Assembly: GCA_009841075.1 (NCBI GenBank)
Contig: VXMP01000021.1
Coordinates: 11,603 to 74,496, forward strand
DNA: 62,894 nucleotides
Direction: 5' to 3'
Source: Acidimicrobiia bacterium
GTDB taxonomy: Bacteria > Actinomycetota > Acidimicrobiia > Spongiisociales > Spongiisociaceae
Shown: one piece after another, positions 4,551-52,666 of the stretch
Layout of the letters: each line of letters begins with the position of its first letter
How positions within the stretch are numbered: position 1 is the stretch's first letter
Translations under genes and position numbers: made by a program
The notes under the pieces: model-generated
What the model was told of the DNA's origin: nothing
Database searches by the model: none
What the model saw: the letters and a program-made list of their open reading frames with translations, nothing else

Positions 4551-4582
4551 TCACTCGTTAAGCGCGTCACTCGTTAAGCGCG
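4551..4582. repeat. perfect 16-bp tandem duplication at the acpS 3' end
   Basis: The unit TCACTCGTTAAGCGCG occurs twice head to tail (4551-4566 and 4567-4582). The second copy encodes the last codons and stop of acpS on the reverse strand; the first lies just beyond the stop. Probably a recent replication-slippage duplication that left the protein unchanged. Confidence 0.9.
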
Positions 4583-4938
4583 ATGGCGAACACCAGGGCC
4601 TGGCGATCGGTGTGGGTTATGGTGACCTCAACCCGGGTGACTTCCAGCTGCTCCGCCCGAGCGGCGGCCGTGCCGGTCAGGAGGACGGTCGGTTTGCCAC
4701 CTCCGGTGATCTCGATATCTCGCCAGCGTATCCGGCGGTATCCGGTACCCAGGGACTTCATTACCGCCTCCTTACCCGCAAACCGGGCGGCATAACGGCG
4801 GGCCGGATGGGCAAAACGCTCCGCATAGGCCTGCTCGTGTTCGGTAAAGCAGCGCCGGGCGAAGCGGGGATAACGCGCCAAGAGACGGGCTACCCGATCA
4901 ATGTCGGCCAGGTCAACACCCAATCCGATAATCTGCAT
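4567..4938 (-). CDS. acpS: holo-[acyl-carrier-protein] synthase
   Basis: A 123-residue AcpS-type phosphopantetheinyl transferase, which moves 4'-phosphopantetheine from CoA to a serine of acyl carrier protein. The N-terminal IGLGVDLADIDRV holds the metal-binding Asp, and RFAGKEAVMKSLGTG carries the conserved Glu-Lys pair. Length is typical of AcpS. It is the last gene of the rplM-rpsI-glmM-glmS-acpS run, 43 bp after glmS. Its final codons are tandemly duplicated beyond the stop. Confidence 0.93.
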   Translation of the reverse strand: MQIIGLGVDLADIDRVARLLARYPRFARRCFTEHEQAYAERFAHPARRYAARFAGKEAVMKSLGTGYRRIRWRDIEITGGGKPTVLLTGTAAARAEQLEVTRVEVTITHTDRQALVFAIALNE

Positions 4939-4981: not shown

Positions 4982-6820
4982 CTATTCGACGGTGACGCTT
5001 TTGGCCAGGTTCCTGGGCTGGTCGATGTCGCGGCCTAGACGGCGGGCGGTGTGGTAGGCCAACAGCTGAAGTGGGATGGCCGCCAGGATCGGAGAAAGCA
5101 GGTGGGCGGTCCTGGGGATTCTTATGACGTGGTCCGATACCGAGCCGATCTCCTGATCGTCCTCGAAGGCCACAGCGATCACCTGGCCTCGGCGGGCCTT
5201 CACTTCCTGGAGTCCGAGCAGTACCTTGCTGTGGACCTGCGGGTTGGTAGCCACCGCCACCACCGGAACCCCGGGGGAAATCAGGGCCAGGGTTCCGTGC
5301 TTAAGTTCGCCGGAGGGCATGGCCTCGGCATGGATGTAGGAAATCTCCTTGAGCTTGAGGGCACCTTCCATGGCGGTGGCATGGTCCAGGCCTCTTCCGA
5401 TGAAATAGACGTTGGGCCATTTGGCCAGCTCCTCGGCCAGACGAACGATTTCGTCCGGGCTTTCCAGAATCCGGGTCGCCTTGCTCGGAAGGCCCCGCAG
5501 CTCGGCCACCAGCTCACCTTCCTCGGCCGGGCTGAGCCGACCACTCCGCCTTCCCATCTCCAGCGCCAGGAGGGTTTCTCCGACCAGCATGGCGATATAG
5601 GCCTTGGTGGAGGCGACCGATATTTCCGGACCGGCCCAGGTGTAGATCACATCGTCGGCCTCCCGGGCCAGGCTTGATCCGACCACGTTGGTCAGCGCCA
5701 GCAGGCGAGAACCATGCTCCCGAGACAGTCGGCCAGCAGCCAGGGTGTCGGCGGTTTCGCCCGACTGGCTGATCGCCAAGGTCAACAGACCCTCTTCGAA
5801 CAGGGGATTACCGTAGCGGAGTTCATGGGCATAGGCCACCTCGCCTGGGATGCCTGCCAGCTGCTCGAACAGGATCCGGCCGACCAAGCCGGCGTGGTAG
5901 GCGGTGCCACAGGCGGTGATCCTGATCCGGTTCACTCCGTCAGGGCTCTGATCCAGCCATCTCAACCCCTCCAAAGCCACCCGTTCGCCGCCATCCGCAC
6001 CGGCCCTGATCCTGGTACCCATGGTTCGGGCGATCACTTCGGGCTGTTCGTGGATTTCCTTTTCCATGAAATGGTCGAAGCCGCCCTTGAAGACGGAATC
6101 GGTCTCCCAGTCAACCGTGAAAGGCTTCTTCTCGATCGGGTTGCCGGAGAAGGTTTCGAATGCGGCCCCGGCCTCGGTGACGGTGACGATCTCGCCGTCC
6201 TCTACCAGCTGGAACCGCTGTGTGTACTTCAGAATGGCCGGGATGTCGGAAGCCAGGAAGGTTTCGTTTTCCCCCAGACCGACCACCAAGGGGCTGGTCA
6301 TGCGGGCGGCTACGATCCGGTCCGGCCGGTGGGCGGTCATTGCCACCAAGGCATAGGCACCTTGGGCCTGACCGATGGCATAACGTACCGCTTCGGTGAG
6401 ATCACCGTCGAAGGCCTCGGCTACCAGATGGGCCAAGACCTCGGTGTCGGTGTCGGAACGAAAGGTGACCCCCCGTAGCTCAAGTTGGTCGCGGAGGGTG
6501 CGAAAGTTTTCCACGATTCCGTTGTGTACCACCACGAAATCGCCAGAGGTGTCGCTGTGGGGATGGGCGTTCCGATCCGAGGGTACCCCGTGGGTGGCCC
6601 AGCGGGTGTGCCCGATGCCGAGGTGTCCGGAAAGGGCGGTCGGATCGACGATTCCTTTGAGTCGGGAGAGCTTGCCTTCCGCCTTGGCGATGGTGATCGA
6701 TCCCGGACGGGCCACGGCCAGGCCGGCGGAGTCGTAGCCTCGATACTCCAGCCGGGTTAGGCCGTGCAAGAGCACCTCAAGGGCCTGGCCCGAACCCACA
6801 TAACCTACGATGCCGCACAT
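4982..6820 (-). CDS. glmS: glutamine-fructose-6-phosphate aminotransferase (isomerising)
   Basis: A 612-residue GlmS, which makes glucosamine-6-phosphate from fructose-6-phosphate and glutamine for peptidoglycan. It begins MCGIVGYVG, so Cys2 becomes the glutaminase nucleophile after Met removal. The glutaminase domain (about 1-230) has HTRWATHG and HNGIVEN; two SIS isomerase domains follow (SQSGETADT near residue 360), and it ends with the family's NLAKSVTVE. The frame opens six codons upstream, but GGAGG lies inside that extension at ribosome-binding distance from 6820. A glmS ribozyme occupies its 5' leader, so glucosamine-6-phosphate probably controls the mRNA. Confidence 0.97.
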   Translation of the reverse strand: MCGIVGYVGSGQALEVLLHGLTRLEYRGYDSAGLAVARPGSITIAKAEGKLSRLKGIVDPTALSGHLGIGHTRWATHGVPSDRNAHPHSDTSGDFVVVHNGIVENFRTLRDQLELRGVTFRSDTDTEVLAHLVAEAFDGDLTEAVRYAIGQAQGAYALVAMTAHRPDRIVAARMTSPLVVGLGENETFLASDIPAILKYTQRFQLVEDGEIVTVTEAGAAFETFSGNPIEKKPFTVDWETDSVFKGGFDHFMEKEIHEQPEVIARTMGTRIRAGADGGERVALEGLRWLDQSPDGVNRIRITACGTAYHAGLVGRILFEQLAGIPGEVAYAHELRYGNPLFEEGLLTLAISQSGETADTLAAGRLSREHGSRLLALTNVVGSSLAREADDVIYTWAGPEISVASTKAYIAMLVGETLLALEMGRRSGRLSPAEEGELVAELRGLPSKATRILESPDEIVRLAEELAKWPNVYFIGRGLDHATAMEGALKLKEISYIHAEAMPSGELKHGTLALISPGVPVVAVATNPQVHSKVLLGLQEVKARRGQVIAVAFEDDQEIGSVSDHVIRIPRTAHLLSPILAAIPLQLLAYHTARRLGRDIDQPRNLAKSVTVE

Positions 6821-7005
6821 CTCTACGCCTCCATCCAAGGGGAAAATTCGCCTGGTCGGACTCCCCTGGTTCGGGCGCAGCGGCCTTCAGTGATCCAGAG
6901 GTTTATCCGTCTTGATCTCCCAATCTCCGGACCGAGGAGTTTGCCTACGCGGGCTCGCCTAGACGTGCGATTTTCGGACACCCGGCTTTTATAGGCCGAA
7001 GCCGA

Positions 7006-7154
7006 TTCCACTCCGGTTCGGTCTTTGTCACCTCGGTTACCCCAGGCTTTTGCTCCGAACCGTCACGACCGTGGAAGAACCGAGAGGGCACCCGCCGAAA
7101 AAACTCGATGCTCCCTCTACCTCGTCACCCCGGAAAAGGTCGGGGTCTGGCGCT
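7006..7154 (-). ncRNA. glmS self-cleaving ribozyme/riboswitch
   Basis: In the 402-bp glmM-glmS gap, the reverse strand carries the conserved glmS ribozyme core in the right order: A|GCGCC cleavage site (cut expected between 7154 and 7153), hairpin P1 ACCCCG/CGGGGT, GACGAGG, ATCGA, then TCGGCGGGTGCCC, with GAGGG and CCCTC able to pair. P3 can form between TTCCAC (7076-7071) and GTGGAA (7011-7006), enclosing P4 CGGTTCGG/CCGAACCG (7062-7055 with 7021-7014). The known Thermoanaerobacter ribozyme shares the same GGCGGGTGCCC block and trailing GGAA. When glucosamine-6-phosphate binds, the RNA cuts itself and the glmS message is degraded. The glmS start lies 185 nt downstream. Confidence 0.92.
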
Positions 7155-7156
7155 TG

Positions 7157-7174
7157 AAAAATCGGTCCACCGAT
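7157..7174 (-). terminator. hairpin with T-run between glmM and the glmS ribozyme
   Basis: On the reverse strand ATCGGT-GG-ACCGAT (7174-7161) is followed by a five-base T run (7161-7157). It ends three bases before the ribozyme cleavage position and 49 bp after the glmM stop. It looks like a short intrinsic terminator or attenuator that would uncouple glmS from the ribosomal operon. The stem is only 6 bp, so leaky termination is likely. Confidence 0.45.
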
Positions 7175-7222: not shown

Positions 7223-8575
7223 TTAGGGAAGGTCGCCCAGCTCTTGCCTGACCACTCGGGCTATGCGGTCGGCTATTAGGCAGGCAGCGTCTTTGGTCGG
7301 GGCTTCGACCATCACCCTGACCAGCGGTTCGGTCCCGGATGCTCTCACCAGTACCCTCCCTTGTTCACCGAGTTCGGCTTCGGCATCCCGTACCGCCTTT
7401 TTTACGCCGGGGGCTTGGGACAGGTCTTTGGATCGTACTTCCAGGTTGACCAGCACCTGCGGGAACTCGGTTATCGCCGCCCGCCTCAGATCGCAAAGGG
7501 GTTGTTCGGTCTGGACCATCACCTCCAGAAGCCGGAGGGCGGTTAAAAGGCCGTCGCCGGTGGATCCTCTGTCAAGCTGGATCACATGGCCGGACTGTTC
7601 ACCACCCAGGATGGCACCGTGACTGCGCATCGCTTCCAGAACGTATCGGTCGCCCACCCGGGTCACCACCAGCTCAATGCCGACCTCCTCCATGGACCTG
7701 CGTAGGCCCAGGTTGGACATCACGGTAGTTACCATCCGGTTTCCGACCAGATCTCCTCGGTGGTGGAGATGGCGGGCGATGACGGCCATTATCACATCCC
7801 CGTTGGCCACCCGACCCTCCTCGTCAACGGCTATCAGACGGTCGGCGTCGCCGTCGAAACAAAACCCGATCCGACCCTGGGCCTCGACCTGGGAGGCCAA
7901 GGTTTCGGGCGAGGTTGCGCCACATCGGTGGTTGATGTTGAGGCCGTCCGGGTCGACAAAGAAGGGCTTGACGTCGGCACCGAGCGACTCGAACAGTCGA
8001 GGAGCGACCTGATGGGCGGCCCCGTTGGCGCAATCGAGGGCCAGCTTCATGCCCTCCAGGGAAACGTTGGTCTGGCTACGGAGGATGTCCATATAGATAT
8101 CTCCGGCGTCTTCCAAGACCACCCCGGTTCCGATCTCCGCTCCGGTAGGAGTCCTCCAGGGTGACCCCTCGGCCAGCCGAGCTTCGATCCGCGCCTCCTG
8201 GTCGTCATCCAGCTTGGCACCTTCTGCGTCTAGGAACTTGATCCCGTTATCCGGGGCCGGGTTGTGGGAGGCGGAGATCATCACCCCCAGGTCGGCCCCG
8301 AATCGGTTGACCAAAGCCGACACCGCCCCGACCGGAATAACGCCGGCATCCCTGGTTTCTACCCCGACCGAATGGAATCCGGCTTGCAGCGCCGAGAAGA
8401 GCATCAGACCGGAACGGCGGGTGTCGCGGCCTAGTATCACTACCCCGCCTTCGAACATCTCCCCGACGGCTCGGGCCAGTCCCACCGTCAGATCGACATC
8501 CAGGTCGGCGTTGGCGACCCCTCTTACACCGTCGGTGCCGAAGAGGAGACGTTGAGATGGAGGGTTAACAGGCAA
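7223..8575 (-). CDS. glmM: phosphoglucosamine mutase
   Basis: A roughly 450-residue GlmM, which converts glucosamine-6-phosphate to glucosamine-1-phosphate, the step after GlmS towards UDP-GlcNAc. It has LLFGTDGVRGVAN at the N-terminus, the phosphoserine loop ISASHNPAPDNG (active Ser near residue 100), the metal loop DGDADR and the sugar-binding GEQSGH. The frame extends back into rpsI; the TTG at 8575 gives the family length and a 31-bp gap from rpsI, but the start is uncertain because no strong ribosome-binding site precedes it. Confidence 0.93.
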   Translation of the reverse strand: MPVNPPSQRLLFGTDGVRGVANADLDVDLTVGLARAVGEMFEGGVVILGRDTRRSGLMLFSALQAGFHSVGVETRDAGVIPVGAVSALVNRFGADLGVMISASHNPAPDNGIKFLDAEGAKLDDDQEARIEARLAEGSPWRTPTGAEIGTGVVLEDAGDIYMDILRSQTNVSLEGMKLALDCANGAAHQVAPRLFESLGADVKPFFVDPDGLNINHRCGATSPETLASQVEAQGRIGFCFDGDADRLIAVDEEGRVANGDVIMAVIARHLHHRGDLVGNRMVTTVMSNLGLRRSMEEVGIELVVTRVGDRYVLEAMRSHGAILGGEQSGHVIQLDRGSTGDGLLTALRLLEVMVQTEQPLCDLRRAAITEFPQVLVNLEVRSKDLSQAPGVKKAVRDAEAELGEQGRVLVRASGTEPLVRVMVEAPTKDAACLIADRIARVVRQELGDLP

Positions 8576-8606: not shown

Positions 8607-8999
8607 CTAGCGCTTGGTGTACTGGGGTGCCCGCCGAGCCTTCCGAAGACCGTACTTCTTGCTCTCCACCACTCGGGCGTCACGGGTCAACAGTCCGGCC
8701 TTCTTGAGGTCCTGGCGAAAAGTGGGGTCTATTTCGACCAGACTACGGGCTATCCCGAGTCGGAGTGCATCGGCCTGCCCGTTCTCACCCCCTCCTTCCA
8801 GCTTGGCCACCACGTCATATCGGCCGTCTACCTTGGCGACCTGGAGAGGTTCGATAACCCGCATCCGCCGGGCCATGGTGGGGAAATAATTCTCCAGGGT
8901 GCGCCCGTTGAGGATGAAGGTGCCGGTACCGGAGTAGAGTCGGACCTGGGCGATGGCCTCTTTGCGGCGGCCGGTGGCGTGAGCCAGCATTTTTTTCAT
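8607..8999 (-). CDS. rpsI: 30S ribosomal protein S9
   Basis: A 130-residue S9 of usual bacterial length. It contains ATGRRKEAIAQVRL, GTGTFILNGR and the conserved C-terminus ending in PQYTKR, whose basic tail reaches the decoding region of the small subunit. It starts one base after the rplM stop, the universal rplM-rpsI pairing, so the two are certainly co-transcribed. glmM follows on the same strand. Confidence 0.97.
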   Translation of the reverse strand: MKKMLAHATGRRKEAIAQVRLYSGTGTFILNGRTLENYFPTMARRMRVIEPLQVAKVDGRYDVVAKLEGGGENGQADALRLGIARSLVEIDPTFRQDLKKAGLLTRDARVVESKKYGLRKARRAPQYTKR

Positions 9000-9000
9000 T

Positions 9001-9462
9001 TCAGGAACCCGCCTTCCGGATTTCTAGGTCAAGAACTTCAGGGGACTGGGCCCCATGGGGATGGTCCGGGCCAGCATATACCTTGAGCTTACGAAGCATC
9101 CGCCGCCCTAGTCGGGTCTTGGGAAGCATACCCCGAACCGCCCGTTCGATAACCGCCTCCGGTCGGCGTTTAATGAGGCTGTCGAACGATTCCTCCTTGA
9201 GCCCACCCGGGTAGCCGGAGTGTCGATAATAGATCTTGCTCTGGCTGCCTGCGGAAGATACCGCCACCCGGGCGGCGTTGATTACCACCACAAAGTCGCC
9301 TCCGTCCAGGTGGGGGGCGTAGGTGGGCTTATGCTTTCCGGCCAGGATGGGGGCCAGTCGGGAGGCGAGACGGCCCAGCGGGACATCGGCGGCATCCACC
9401 ACGTACCAGTGGCGGGTGATGTCGGACTGTTTAGGAGAGTAGGTAGTTTGTCGCTGAACCAT
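9001..9462 (-). CDS. rplM: 50S ribosomal protein L13
   Basis: A 153-residue L13. Family blocks: WYVVDAADVPLGRLAS, LAGKHKPTYAPHLDGGDFVVVINA, YRHSGYPGGLK and GMLPKTRLGRRMLRKLKVY. A short N-terminal extension with a Lys/Gln-rich stretch precedes the core. It heads the rplM-rpsI-glmM run; truA lies 195 bp upstream on the same strand, with room for a separate promoter. Confidence 0.97.
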   Translation of the reverse strand: MVQRQTTYSPKQSDITRHWYVVDAADVPLGRLASRLAPILAGKHKPTYAPHLDGGDFVVVINAARVAVSSAGSQSKIYYRHSGYPGGLKEESFDSLIKRRPEAVIERAVRGMLPKTRLGRRMLRKLKVYAGPDHPHGAQSPEVLDLEIRKAGS

Positions 9463-49225: not shown

Positions 49226-49530
49226 CTTGGCACGTCCCGCCCGCCGTCTCCGACCTCGAATGGGACTTCTATAAGAACAATGGCTCCGATCTGGTACGGA
49301 TCAACGTCAGTCCCTCCGAACATCCGGTCTACGACACCAAGGGCGATCAGGAGATCTTTGGCACCGCACCCCGGTGGGCACTATTTCGGTCACCGACCGT
49401 AGGGAACTGGAAAGAATCATCGCCGGACGCCGGTGACATCCGGTCCGCCTGCCTGACCTCGCTCTGGAGGAGCAAACCCTCTTCTGTGGAGTGGGCTTCT
49501 GCCGTAAGCCTTCCACATGGGTCGCTATAG
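49213..49530 (+). other. patchwork of coding-like fragments
   Basis: After the queA relic the frame shifts. One frame reads AWHVPPAVSDLEWDFYKNNG, then SDLVRINVSPSEHPVYDTKG (to about 49420). Another reads TISVTDRRELERIIAGRR and stops, and a third reads LEEQTLFCGVGFCRKPSTW (to about 49515). These stretches look like decayed protein sequence rather than random DNA, but I cannot name their families. The segment ends where the cobalamin riboswitch begins. Confidence 0.45.
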
Positions 49531-49534
49531 TGTT

Positions 49535-49660
49535 TATTGGTCCGGGTTGACAGCCGGATGCTATGGAGACCAGCGAAGTCCGGTGCGAGTCCGGCGCTGT
49601 CCCGCAACTGTCAAGCCTCACCACCGGTGAGGACGAGCCAGGTCGCCTGATCCATGGTCA
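49535..49660 (+). ncRNA. cobalamin (B12) riboswitch
   Basis: The conserved core is clear: GCCGG, then AGTCCGGTGCGAGTCCGGCG followed by CTGTCCCGCAACTGT, and a B12 box GAGCCAGGTCGCCTG near 49635-49649. This RNA binds adenosylcobalamin-type ligands and shuts down the genes behind it. Those are a B12-type importer and a cobalamin adenosyltransferase, as expected. Confidence 0.95.
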
Positions 49661-49733
49661 CGTATCAGCTCTCGGAGGAAGGGTTGCTCGTGTTGGGTTT
49701 CCCGATTTTGAAGAACCCTGACCGATCTCTCTT

Positions 49734-49762: not shown

Positions 49763-50845
49763 ATGCGACGACTAAAAGGATCGTTGCTGCTTGTAATGGT
49801 GCTGCTCATAGCGGCTGCCTGCGGAGAGGATTCGTCCTCTGGCCTGCCTGAGGGGACCCAGCCGACCACCGACCAGGTTTCTACCACTACCACCGTTCCC
49901 GCCACCACGACCGAAGTAACCACCCCCACAACTGCCCCTACCACAACCACGGTGGCCCCCACTACCACTACAGAAGCCACCACAACTACTACCACATCCC
50001 CAACAACCACTACCACCACCGAAGTGGCGGCGTTTCCGGTTACGGTGGCCGGGGTTGAGATACCCGGTCGGCCGGAAGCGATCGTGTCGCTGTCCCCTAC
50101 CGCCACCGAGATGCTGTATGGGGTGGGTGCGGGAGCCCAGGTGGTTGCGGTGGATGATTTTTCCAACTATCCGCCCGAAGCGCCGATGACCGACCTGAGC
50201 GGGTTTCGTCCTAACCTGGAGGCCATAGCCGAATACAGTCCGGATTTGGTGGTCATGTCGGGCAACCCCGACGAGATCGTCTCCGGCTTGGAGGCGCTGG
50301 GGATTCCCACCTTGGTCCATAGCGCCGCCCTGAGCCTGGAGGATGCCTACCAGCAGATGCGGCAGGTGGGTGCCGCCACGGGCCACTCTGAAGAGGCCGA
50401 GGCGCTGGTTACCTCCCTGCAGGAAGAGATCACCGAGATGGTCTCCCGATACGAGGATATCGGCCAGGGCTTGACGTTCTACCATGAGATTTCCAACGAC
50501 TTCTTCTCCGCCACGTCCGGTACCTTCATCGGGGCCGTATACGGGTTGTTCGGCCTGGAAAACATTGCCGACGCCGCCGATCCCGACGGTTTCGGATACC
50601 CGCAACTATCTGCGGAGTACATCCTTGAATCCGACCCGGACCTCATCTTCTACGGCTGCGCGGTCTGGTGCGGCACCACCGCCGAGTCGATAGCGGAAAG
50701 GCCAGGATGGAACGAACTCAGCGCAGTGGGTAATGGACTCCTTTTTGAGGTGGACGACGACCTGTCCAGCCGATGGGGTCCCAGGCTGATCGAGTTTGTG
50801 AGGATTATCAGCCACACCCTGGAGCAGGTAACCAACCAAGGCTGA
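49763..50845 (+). CDS. btuF: cobalamin-type ABC transporter substrate-binding lipoprotein
   Basis: A 360-residue lipoprotein. The lipobox is LIAAAC, with the lipidated Cys at about residue 20. A long Thr-rich linker (about 35-90) then leads to a periplasmic-binding fold of class III (VSLSPTATEMLYGVGAGAQVVAVDD, DLVVMSGNPDEIVSGLEALG). It should capture a corrinoid outside the membrane and pass it to the permease. It stands first behind the B12 riboswitch, 4 bp before btuC. The gene symbol is given from context; siderophore-binding relatives share the fold. Confidence 0.88.
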   Translation: MRRLKGSLLLVMVLLIAAACGEDSSSGLPEGTQPTTDQVSTTTTVPATTTEVTTPTTAPTTTTVAPTTTTEATTTTTTSPTTTTTTEVAAFPVTVAGVEIPGRPEAIVSLSPTATEMLYGVGAGAQVVAVDDFSNYPPEAPMTDLSGFRPNLEAIAEYSPDLVVMSGNPDEIVSGLEALGIPTLVHSAALSLEDAYQQMRQVGAATGHSEEAEALVTSLQEEITEMVSRYEDIGQGLTFYHEISNDFFSATSGTFIGAVYGLFGLENIADAADPDGFGYPQLSAEYILESDPDLIFYGCAVWCGTTAESIAERPGWNELSAVGNGLLFEVDDDLSSRWGPRLIEFVRIISHTLEQVTNQG

Positions 50846-50849
50846 ACCA

Positions 50850-51890
50850 ATGTCCGAAGCTACCCCCCGTCTGGCCCCGGTGCGGATGCGCCGGGGCTGG
50901 CTCTCCGCCATGCTGGCCATTCTGGTGGTGGCCATGGTGAGCGGGATCACCGTCGGTCCGGCCGATATCGGCCCGGGAGAGGTCTTCCAGGAATTGTTCG
51001 CCGGGGTGTTCGGGCGACCCTCGGAACTTTCTGCCATCCAGCAGGCCATCATCTGGGAAATCCGGCTCCCTCGAGTGGTGCTAGGCGGACTGGTGGGAGG
51101 ATTGTTATCGGTGGCTGGTGCCGCCTACCAGGGGGTGTTCCGAAATCCTCTGGCCGATCCCTATCTGCTCGGGGTAGCCGCCGGAGGAGGGCTGGGTGCC
51201 ACGGTGGCGATCGCCCTCCTGCCTGGTGCCGGTAACACATGGTTGCCGATCGCGGCGTTCGGCGGGGCTCTGGGGGCGGTGCTTCTGACCTATGCGGTGG
51301 GGCGTTCGCTGGGGGGCCGGAGTGCGGTTTCGCTGATTCTCGCCGGTGTGGCGGTTGCCACCTTCTTCACCGCCGTGCAGACCTACATCCTGCAGCGCAA
51401 TGCGGAAACCATTCGCCAGGTCTACTCCTGGATTCTGGGTTTGCTGGCCACCACCGGATGGCAGGAGGTGGTGGTTGTTATGCCCTATGCGGTGATCTGT
51501 GGGACCGGGTTGATTCTGCTTCGGCGATTGATGGATGTCATGGCCGTGGGCGACGAAGAAGCCACCAGTCTGGGGATATCGGCCGTCCAGGTAAGGGCAA
51601 CGGTGGTGGTGTTGGCGACGCTGGCGACGGCTGCGGCGGTGGCGGTTAGCGGGTTGATCGGCTTCGTCGGCATTGTGATCCCCCATACCGTTCGGCTACT
51701 GGTGGGGACGAGCTATCGCTCCCTGATCCCGCTTTCGGTGGTGGCCGGGGCCGCCTTTCTGATCCTCGCCGACCTGGTTGCCCGCACCATAGCCAGCCCG
51801 GCCGAGCTGCCAATCGGGGTGATAACAGCCTTTGTGGGGGCACCGTTTTTCCTCTTGGTACTGCGGACCAGTAGGAGGTTCATGTCGTGA
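50850..51890 (+). CDS. btuC: FecCD/BtuC-type ABC transporter permease
   Basis: A 346-residue polytopic permease of the FecCD/BtuC type with about 10 helices. Typical blocks: LRLPRVVLG-like IRLPRVVLGGLVGG, GAAYQGVFRNPLADPYLLGV, and VGIVIPHTVRLLVG near the ATPase-coupling loop. It forms the membrane channel for corrinoid uptake. The B12 riboswitch and neighbours argue for cobalamin over iron-siderophore. btuD overlaps its end by 4 bp. Confidence 0.92.
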   Translation: MSEATPRLAPVRMRRGWLSAMLAILVVAMVSGITVGPADIGPGEVFQELFAGVFGRPSELSAIQQAIIWEIRLPRVVLGGLVGGLLSVAGAAYQGVFRNPLADPYLLGVAAGGGLGATVAIALLPGAGNTWLPIAAFGGALGAVLLTYAVGRSLGGRSAVSLILAGVAVATFFTAVQTYILQRNAETIRQVYSWILGLLATTGWQEVVVVMPYAVICGTGLILLRRLMDVMAVGDEEATSLGISAVQVRATVVVLATLATAAAVAVSGLIGFVGIVIPHTVRLLVGTSYRSLIPLSVVAGAAFLILADLVARTIASPAELPIGVITAFVGAPFFLLVLRTSRRFMS

Positions 51891-52666
51891 GCGTGACTAC
51901 GGACGGGCTGTCGGTGTCCTACGGGGCAGACTCGGTGGCGGTCCACGAACTTTCCCTGCGGGTCGAAACCGGAGAGTGGCTGGGCCTGCTGGGTCCCAAC
52001 GGGGCCGGTAAATCCACCATGCTCAAGGCCCTGGCCGGGTTGGTTAAACACACCGGGGCTATCTATTTGTCGGATATCGAAGCCGCCACTATGCGAGGTC
52101 CCGAGCGGGCACGGCTGGTGGCCTTCGTTCCTCAAGAACCGGTCATGCCGTCCGGTATGAGCGTGGCCGAGTATGTTCTGCTGGGCCGCACCCCGCACCT
52201 GCCTTTCCTGGGGTCGGAGGGGAAGGGGGACTTGGAGGTGGCCGCCACCGCTTTGGATCTGCTCAACCTGACCAATTTCTCCCAACGGCCGGTCGGAACC
52301 CTCAGCGGCGGCGAGCGGCGGCGGGTGGTGTTGGGAAGGGCGATCGCCCAGGAGGCCGATATCTTGTTGCTGGATGAACCCACCTCGGCTCTGGATATCG
52401 GCCAAAGCCAAAGTGCCTTGGAACTCATCTGCTATCTACGGAAGGAGCGGGAGATGACTGTAATAACCGCCATGCACGATTTGACCCTGGTGGGTCAGTT
52501 CGCCGACCGATTGCTGCTGATGTCCGGCGGTCGTTCGGTGGCAGACGGGCCGCCGGAAAAGGTTCTGACGGCCGACTTCATACGAGACCTGTACCAAGCC
52601 GACGTGGAGGTGGTGGCCGCTAACGGCGGGTTGGCGGTTCTCCCGACCCGAAGGGATCAGCGATGA
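51887..52666 (+). CDS. btuD: ABC transporter ATP-binding protein for corrinoid import
   Basis: A 259-residue ATPase of the FepC/BtuD group. Walker A LLGPNGAGKSTML, signature TLSGGERRRVVLGRA, Walker B ILLLDEPTSALD and the H-loop TAMHDLTLVGQFADR are all intact. It powers the btuC permease from the cytoplasmic side. GTG start at 51887 overlaps btuC by 4 bp, and cobO begins 4 bp before its end. Confidence 0.93.
   Translation: MSVTTDGLSVSYGADSVAVHELSLRVETGEWLGLLGPNGAGKSTMLKALAGLVKHTGAIYLSDIEAATMRGPERARLVAFVPQEPVMPSGMSVAEYVLLGRTPHLPFLGSEGKGDLEVAATALDLLNLTNFSQRPVGTLSGGERRRVVLGRAIAQEADILLLDEPTSALDIGQSQSALELICYLRKEREMTVITAMHDLTLVGQFADRLLLMSGGRSVADGPPEKVLTADFIRDLYQADVEVVAANGGLAVLPTRRDQR

Follow-up and report, generated by a model that had tools for sequence, protein, structure and literature searches.

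The minus strand of the window, by which we mean the whole 62,894-nucleotide stretch of an Acidimicrobiia genome analysed here (contig VXMP01000021.1, positions 11,603 to 74,496), carries a genuine, full copy of the well-known glmS ribozyme. Such RNAs cut the message that bears them once amino sugar for the cell wall is plentiful; the copy here is an ordinary one for its family, and its host is less familiar. The account that we hold, taken as a whole, with high confidence is that this ribozyme belongs to the lineage of its order, that it would cleave its message in response to GlcN6P and expose it to decay by RNase J, and that behind it a Firmicutes-type gene has most likely taken the place of the original glmS.

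The first-pass annotation had put a glmS ribozyme at 7006-7154, and scoring the region with the Rfam glmS model RF00234 by cmscan, the check that it had proposed, gave a full-length match (model positions 1-167/167) at 87.9 bits (E 6.3e-19 for the window), well over the gathering score of 37 bits. Even the limits are exact, 7154 being A-1, 7153 G1 and 7006 the final base of the P3.1 tail, and each of the core pieces that had been listed is there, namely AGCGCC at the cleavage site, P1, GACGAGG, ATCGA and GGCGG, along with P3 and P4. Further elements are P2, P2.1, P2.2, P4.1 with its GUAA tetraloop, and a six-base-pair P3.1 pseudoknot (Table 1). Between 6780 and 7230 no Rfam family other than glmS matched, even at E up to 1, and the ribozyme is present in the host genome as a single copy, sited between glmM and glmS.

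How well is the structure kept among relatives? We aligned 44 related sequences and counted pairs for the structure including its pseudoknots. Across these relatives 92.1% of the cells are paired; in shuffles the figure is 77%, and with slid partners it does not exceed 48%. Of the 44 pairs of the structure, 28 show changes on both sides. The invariant columns include AGCGCC, GACGAGG, ATCGA and TCGGCGG; P2.1, P2.2 and the cleavage-site residues do not vary, and the outer helices, P3.1 included, covary. P3.1 is absent from the Rfam match as displayed, yet it is present, and five of its six pairs have changed on both sides in the relatives; a longest-helix swap test is weak for this pseudoknot (5.07 versus 4.47), and the aligned pair count was therefore used instead. 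The cleavage position is placed by homology with characterised ribozymes (PMC7125110), in which P2.1 forms the active site and cofactor pocket (PMC7125110, PMC11602151), and the roles of IL4 and the tetraloop are taken from PMC11602151. What assigns the element to the family is its RF00234 score, the double pseudoknot of P2, P2.1 and P2.2, the P3/P3.1 pairing, the P4 internal loop and GNRA tetraloop, and its location in the 5' leader of glmS.

Table 1. Ribozyme elements and neighbouring genes, in window positions
Feature	Positions	Strand	Evidence or remark
glmS ribozyme, whole Rfam match	7005..7165	-	cmscan, RF00234
Predicted cleavage site, A-1 (7154) / G1 (7153)	7153..7154	-	AGCGCC invariant in 44/44; position by homology
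P2.2: 7152-7149 and 7147 with 7097-7093, A6 bulge at 7148	7093..7152	-	five pairs intact, invariant in 44/44
P1 hairpin: 7146-7141 with 7132-7127	7127..7146	-	96.2% of cells paired; 5/6 pairs covary
P2.1: 7124-7122 (CGA of GACGAGG) with 7108-7106 (UCG of AUCGA)	7106..7124	-	invariant in 44/44
P2: 7118-7113 with 7088-7083	7083..7118	-	88.6% paired; 4/6 pairs changed on both sides
P3: 7082-7078 with 7070-7066	7066..7082	-	94.4% of cells paired
P3.1 pseudoknot: loop UUCCAC 7076-7071 with tail GUGGAA 7011-7006	7006..7076	-	six Watson-Crick pairs
P4: 7061-7055 with 7021-7015	7015..7061	-	all seven pairs covary
P4.1: 7046-7041 with 7036-7031, one G.G mismatch	within P4	-	all six pairs covary
GUAA tetraloop	7040-7037	-	caps P4.1
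IL4 adenines	7051-7048, plus ACAAA 7028-7024	-	within P4
Leader, ribozyme to glmS start, 184 nt	6821..7004	-	second RNA family not found
glmS, glutamine--fructose-6-phosphate transaminase, 612 aa, Firmicutes-type	4982..6820	-	TIGR01135, 757 bits; trees
acpS, holo-ACP synthase	4567..4938	-	TIGR00516 and TIGR00556 above cut-off
glmM, phosphoglucosamine mutase, order-specific type	7223..8551, start approximate	-	TIGR01455, 510 bits; tree
rpsI (8607-8999) and rplM (9001-9462), upstream, same direction	8607..9462	-	ORF list; named from recognised sequence

On the minus strand the order is rplM-rpsI-glmM-ribozyme-glmS-acpS, and the gene downstream of the ribozyme, on the same strand, is by its TIGR01135 score the glmS gene that the annotation had said it would be. 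The leader between ribozyme and glmS is 145-235 nt in the window's family, f1; among the order's other families, where measured, it is usually 49-102 nt. Aligned with one another, the long f1 leaders reveal no clearly conserved structure, Rfam has no match for them, and a scan near the ribozyme for a sigma-70-like promoter or a terminator found none.

What would the ribozyme do in this organism? Its double pseudoknot would fold during transcription, and GlcN6P, the end product of GlmS, would bind beside the scissile bond and serve as the cleavage cofactor, with excess GlcN6P driving cleavage between A-1 and G1. The downstream glmS fragment, carrying a 5'-OH, would then be degraded by RNase J, and GlmS synthesis would drop with the upstream glmM message spared; because the ribozyme sits between the two genes, any cut in a transcript spanning both would reduce GlmS without touching glmM. 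RNase J1 is the enzyme that degrades the cleaved glmS message with its 5'-OH end in B. subtilis (PMC3997798), and an RNase J gene lies elsewhere in the host genome (473.8 bits, cut-off 400), so that the usual decay route is available here. The sequence, structure, covariation, gene context, conservation and presence of RNase J are what was observed, and from these we infer, soundly in our judgement, the cleavage, its ligand and the decay route, that is, a GlcN6P-triggered feedback in the window organism.

The host genome comprises 2.30 Mb in 90 contigs and is 96% complete, with a contamination estimate of 0.93%. The first-pass view of it as actinobacterial is borne out by four WhiB genes, a family matched among 14 control genomes solely in Corynebacterium glutamicum, and the WhiB genes together with the GTDB class placement make the host a member of the Actinomycetota, class Acidimicrobiia. 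As general knowledge, surprise at a glmS ribozyme in an actinobacterium was fair; the Actinomycetota are usually discussed without such feedback. The rarity that the annotation implied did not survive a survey. The ribozyme is found in 37 of the 40 closest genomes and in all nine of the same genus, where the gene order is likewise the same. A sample of the class, 296 genomes counted from a table, held 95 genomes within the window's order and 201 outside it; the ribozyme is in 89 of the former and 39 of the latter, and 34 of those 39 belong to one family, f82, with genomes of roughly 1 Mb, which is probably Actinomarina. Across the phylum it is present in 75 of 396 sampled Actinomycetota species, probably including Rubrobacter xylanophilus. 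Covariance-model searches found it in a Coriobacteriia MAG (L068, 99.6 bits) and did not find it in Glycomyces. The glmS ribozyme is thus a normal, routine feature of the window's order, and because it also recurs across the Actinomycetota, its presence here is less of a surprise than had been rated. GlcN6P feedback by RNA cleavage would be standard in whole lineages of the phylum.

The same distribution offers a map of where the ribozyme has been retained and where lost, the class members without it having either a GlmS-like protein about twice as long or a glmS abutting glmM. Most of the ribozyme-less members tested encode a GlmS-like protein that is about 1,130-1,200 aa long (L178-L186, e.g. 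L180, G150). It combines GATase_6 and SIS domains, falls below the NCBI glmS cut-off, is lengthened by a long insert close to the N-terminus and by an extension at the C-terminus, and is the one full-length candidate for GlmS that those genomes yielded. Three ribozyme-less members have a canonical GlmS, and there glmS lies close behind glmM. In the window's own family, G011 (L194 / L161) has lost the ribozyme and keeps the glmM-glmS-acpS order and a glmM-glmS spacer of several hundred nucleotides. G035 has a further match of only 26.3 bits, which is attributed to chance; it lies in an unrelated peptidase-dapB region and is absent from cmscan at E 0.01. A loose ribozyme motif search gave many false matches and was dropped, covariance models taking its place.

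What history accounts for the ribozyme and the gene that it precedes? The GlmS of the window is 52-53% identical to its best Firmicutes matches and 42-46% identical to that of f3, a family of its own order. In GlmS trees families f1, f2, f7 and f8, together with f82, fall with Firmicutes; f3 groups with other Actinomycetota. By GlmS identity f5 joins the f1/f2/f7/f8 group, and f4 and f6 join f3. The order therefore holds five families with Firmicutes-type GlmS, the window's included, and three with the actinobacterial type, and a GlmS tree constrained to keep the order together is rejected (dlnL 116, p 3e-61). The GlmM tree, built like the GlmS and ribozyme comparisons mostly from MAG sequences, unites the order in a single clade with 100/100 support and rejects a grouping of the window group with Firmicutes (p 1.4e-4). 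AcpS is 67-78% identical across the two GlmS groups in most families where it was found, and 60% in one, and in every case where the three genes were all found, glmS of either type lies between glmM and acpS. For the ribozyme tree the alignment has only 160 columns and was made with a model derived from sequences of the order itself; a single clade for the order is not rejected by this tree (p 0.42), and grouping the window group with Firmicutes is rejected (p 0.0065). Because the history of GlmS conflicts with those of GlmM, AcpS and the ribozyme, replacement in place is the simplest account: in this order, as we somewhat favour from these sequence comparisons, a Firmicutes-type coding sequence would have taken the place of glmS while the order's own ribozyme, glmM and acpS stayed, a portable regulator outliving its gene. 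If this is true, a metabolite-sensing ribozyme has survived the replacement of its target gene, and the order offers a case in which this can be tested. Sliding identity hinted at a chimeric GlmS with an internal breakpoint. Trees of the two halves did not require one; the N-terminal half does not reject a single clade for the order (p 0.06), and the C-terminal half does (p 5e-7).

One might think instead that the ribozyme and glmS arrived jointly from a Firmicutes donor, the whole regulated unit being foreign, since the window-type GlmS groups with Firmicutes and most of the Firmicutes relatives found also have a glmS ribozyme. We already regard this as unlikely. Aligned pairwise, each of the 16 window-type ribozymes scores higher with those of f3, one of the order's other families, than with any Firmicutes ribozyme, the ribozyme tree refuses the grouping that a common donor calls for, and the flanking glmM and acpS are native. 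Slightly more doubtful is a history without transfer, in which an ancient duplication of glmS and differential loss gave the two GlmS types; that two sharply distinct types occupy one locus would suit it, but both canonical types occur together in no tested genome, and the window-type GlmS nests among Firmicutes.

The remaining alternatives would do away with the function or with the host, and fare worse. The G.G mismatch in P4.1, three G-U pairs in P3 and the loss of the ribozyme from the related G011 could be read as signs of a decayed, inactive relic, a reading that we consider very improbable: every core residue is intact, the nine genomes of the same genus (9/9) all retain the ribozyme, and the mismatch recurs across the genus. 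A Firmicutes contig binned by error into an actinobacterial MAG would explain why GlmS by itself looks Firmicutes-like; this is refuted in practice by nine congeners that share the gene order and the ribozyme, by the place of GlmM with the order at full support, and by the low contamination estimate. Replacement of glmS in place behind a native ribozyme is the reading that we carry forward.

In most respects the RNA is that of the known systems. It shares with the ribozymes of B. subtilis, B. anthracis and Thermoanaerobacter tengcongensis the cleavage site, P1, P2, P2.1, P2.2, P3, P3.1, P4 and P4.1, as well as the GNRA loop, the adenine-rich IL4 and the site before glmS; presumably glmM adjoins glmS in B. 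subtilis also. Unlike these, the host of the window is an uncultured Acidimicrobiia member, GC-richer and with a longer leader (184 nt), and its genus has the conserved P4.1 mismatch. Other Actinomycetota, the probable Rubrobacter, the Coriobacteriia MAG and the probable Actinomarina among them, have the same RNA, usually directly before glmS, but their GlmS is mostly of the actinobacterial type, whereas that of the window is of the Firmicutes type.

A variant arrangement occurs in f41, an AT-rich actinobacterial family with genomes of 1.0-1.4 Mb. In G073 (L191, 12-5512) the order is glmM-ribozyme-glnA-glmS-acpS, and ribozyme-glnA-glmS is found in G215 (L199) too. Such an order would place glnA, whose glutamine synthetase makes a substrate of GlmS, under the same GlcN6P control. 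The f41 ribozymes (L191 in G073, L192 in G096, L199 in G215 and L200 in G425) score 50-62 bits and have two extra hairpins in their core, before an intact ATCGA, with pair 5-53 of P2.2 altered. Another glmS ribozyme, at 3175-3440 of L196 (G432), scores 62.9 bits, and its loop following ATCG is enlarged by an insert of about 66 nt.

Elsewhere in the window, a cobalamin riboswitch (49526-49664, plus strand; 33.8 bits, cut-off 31.5) precedes an apparent periplasmic binding protein/permease/ATPase set (49763-52666), and looks like part of an ordinary B12 uptake system.
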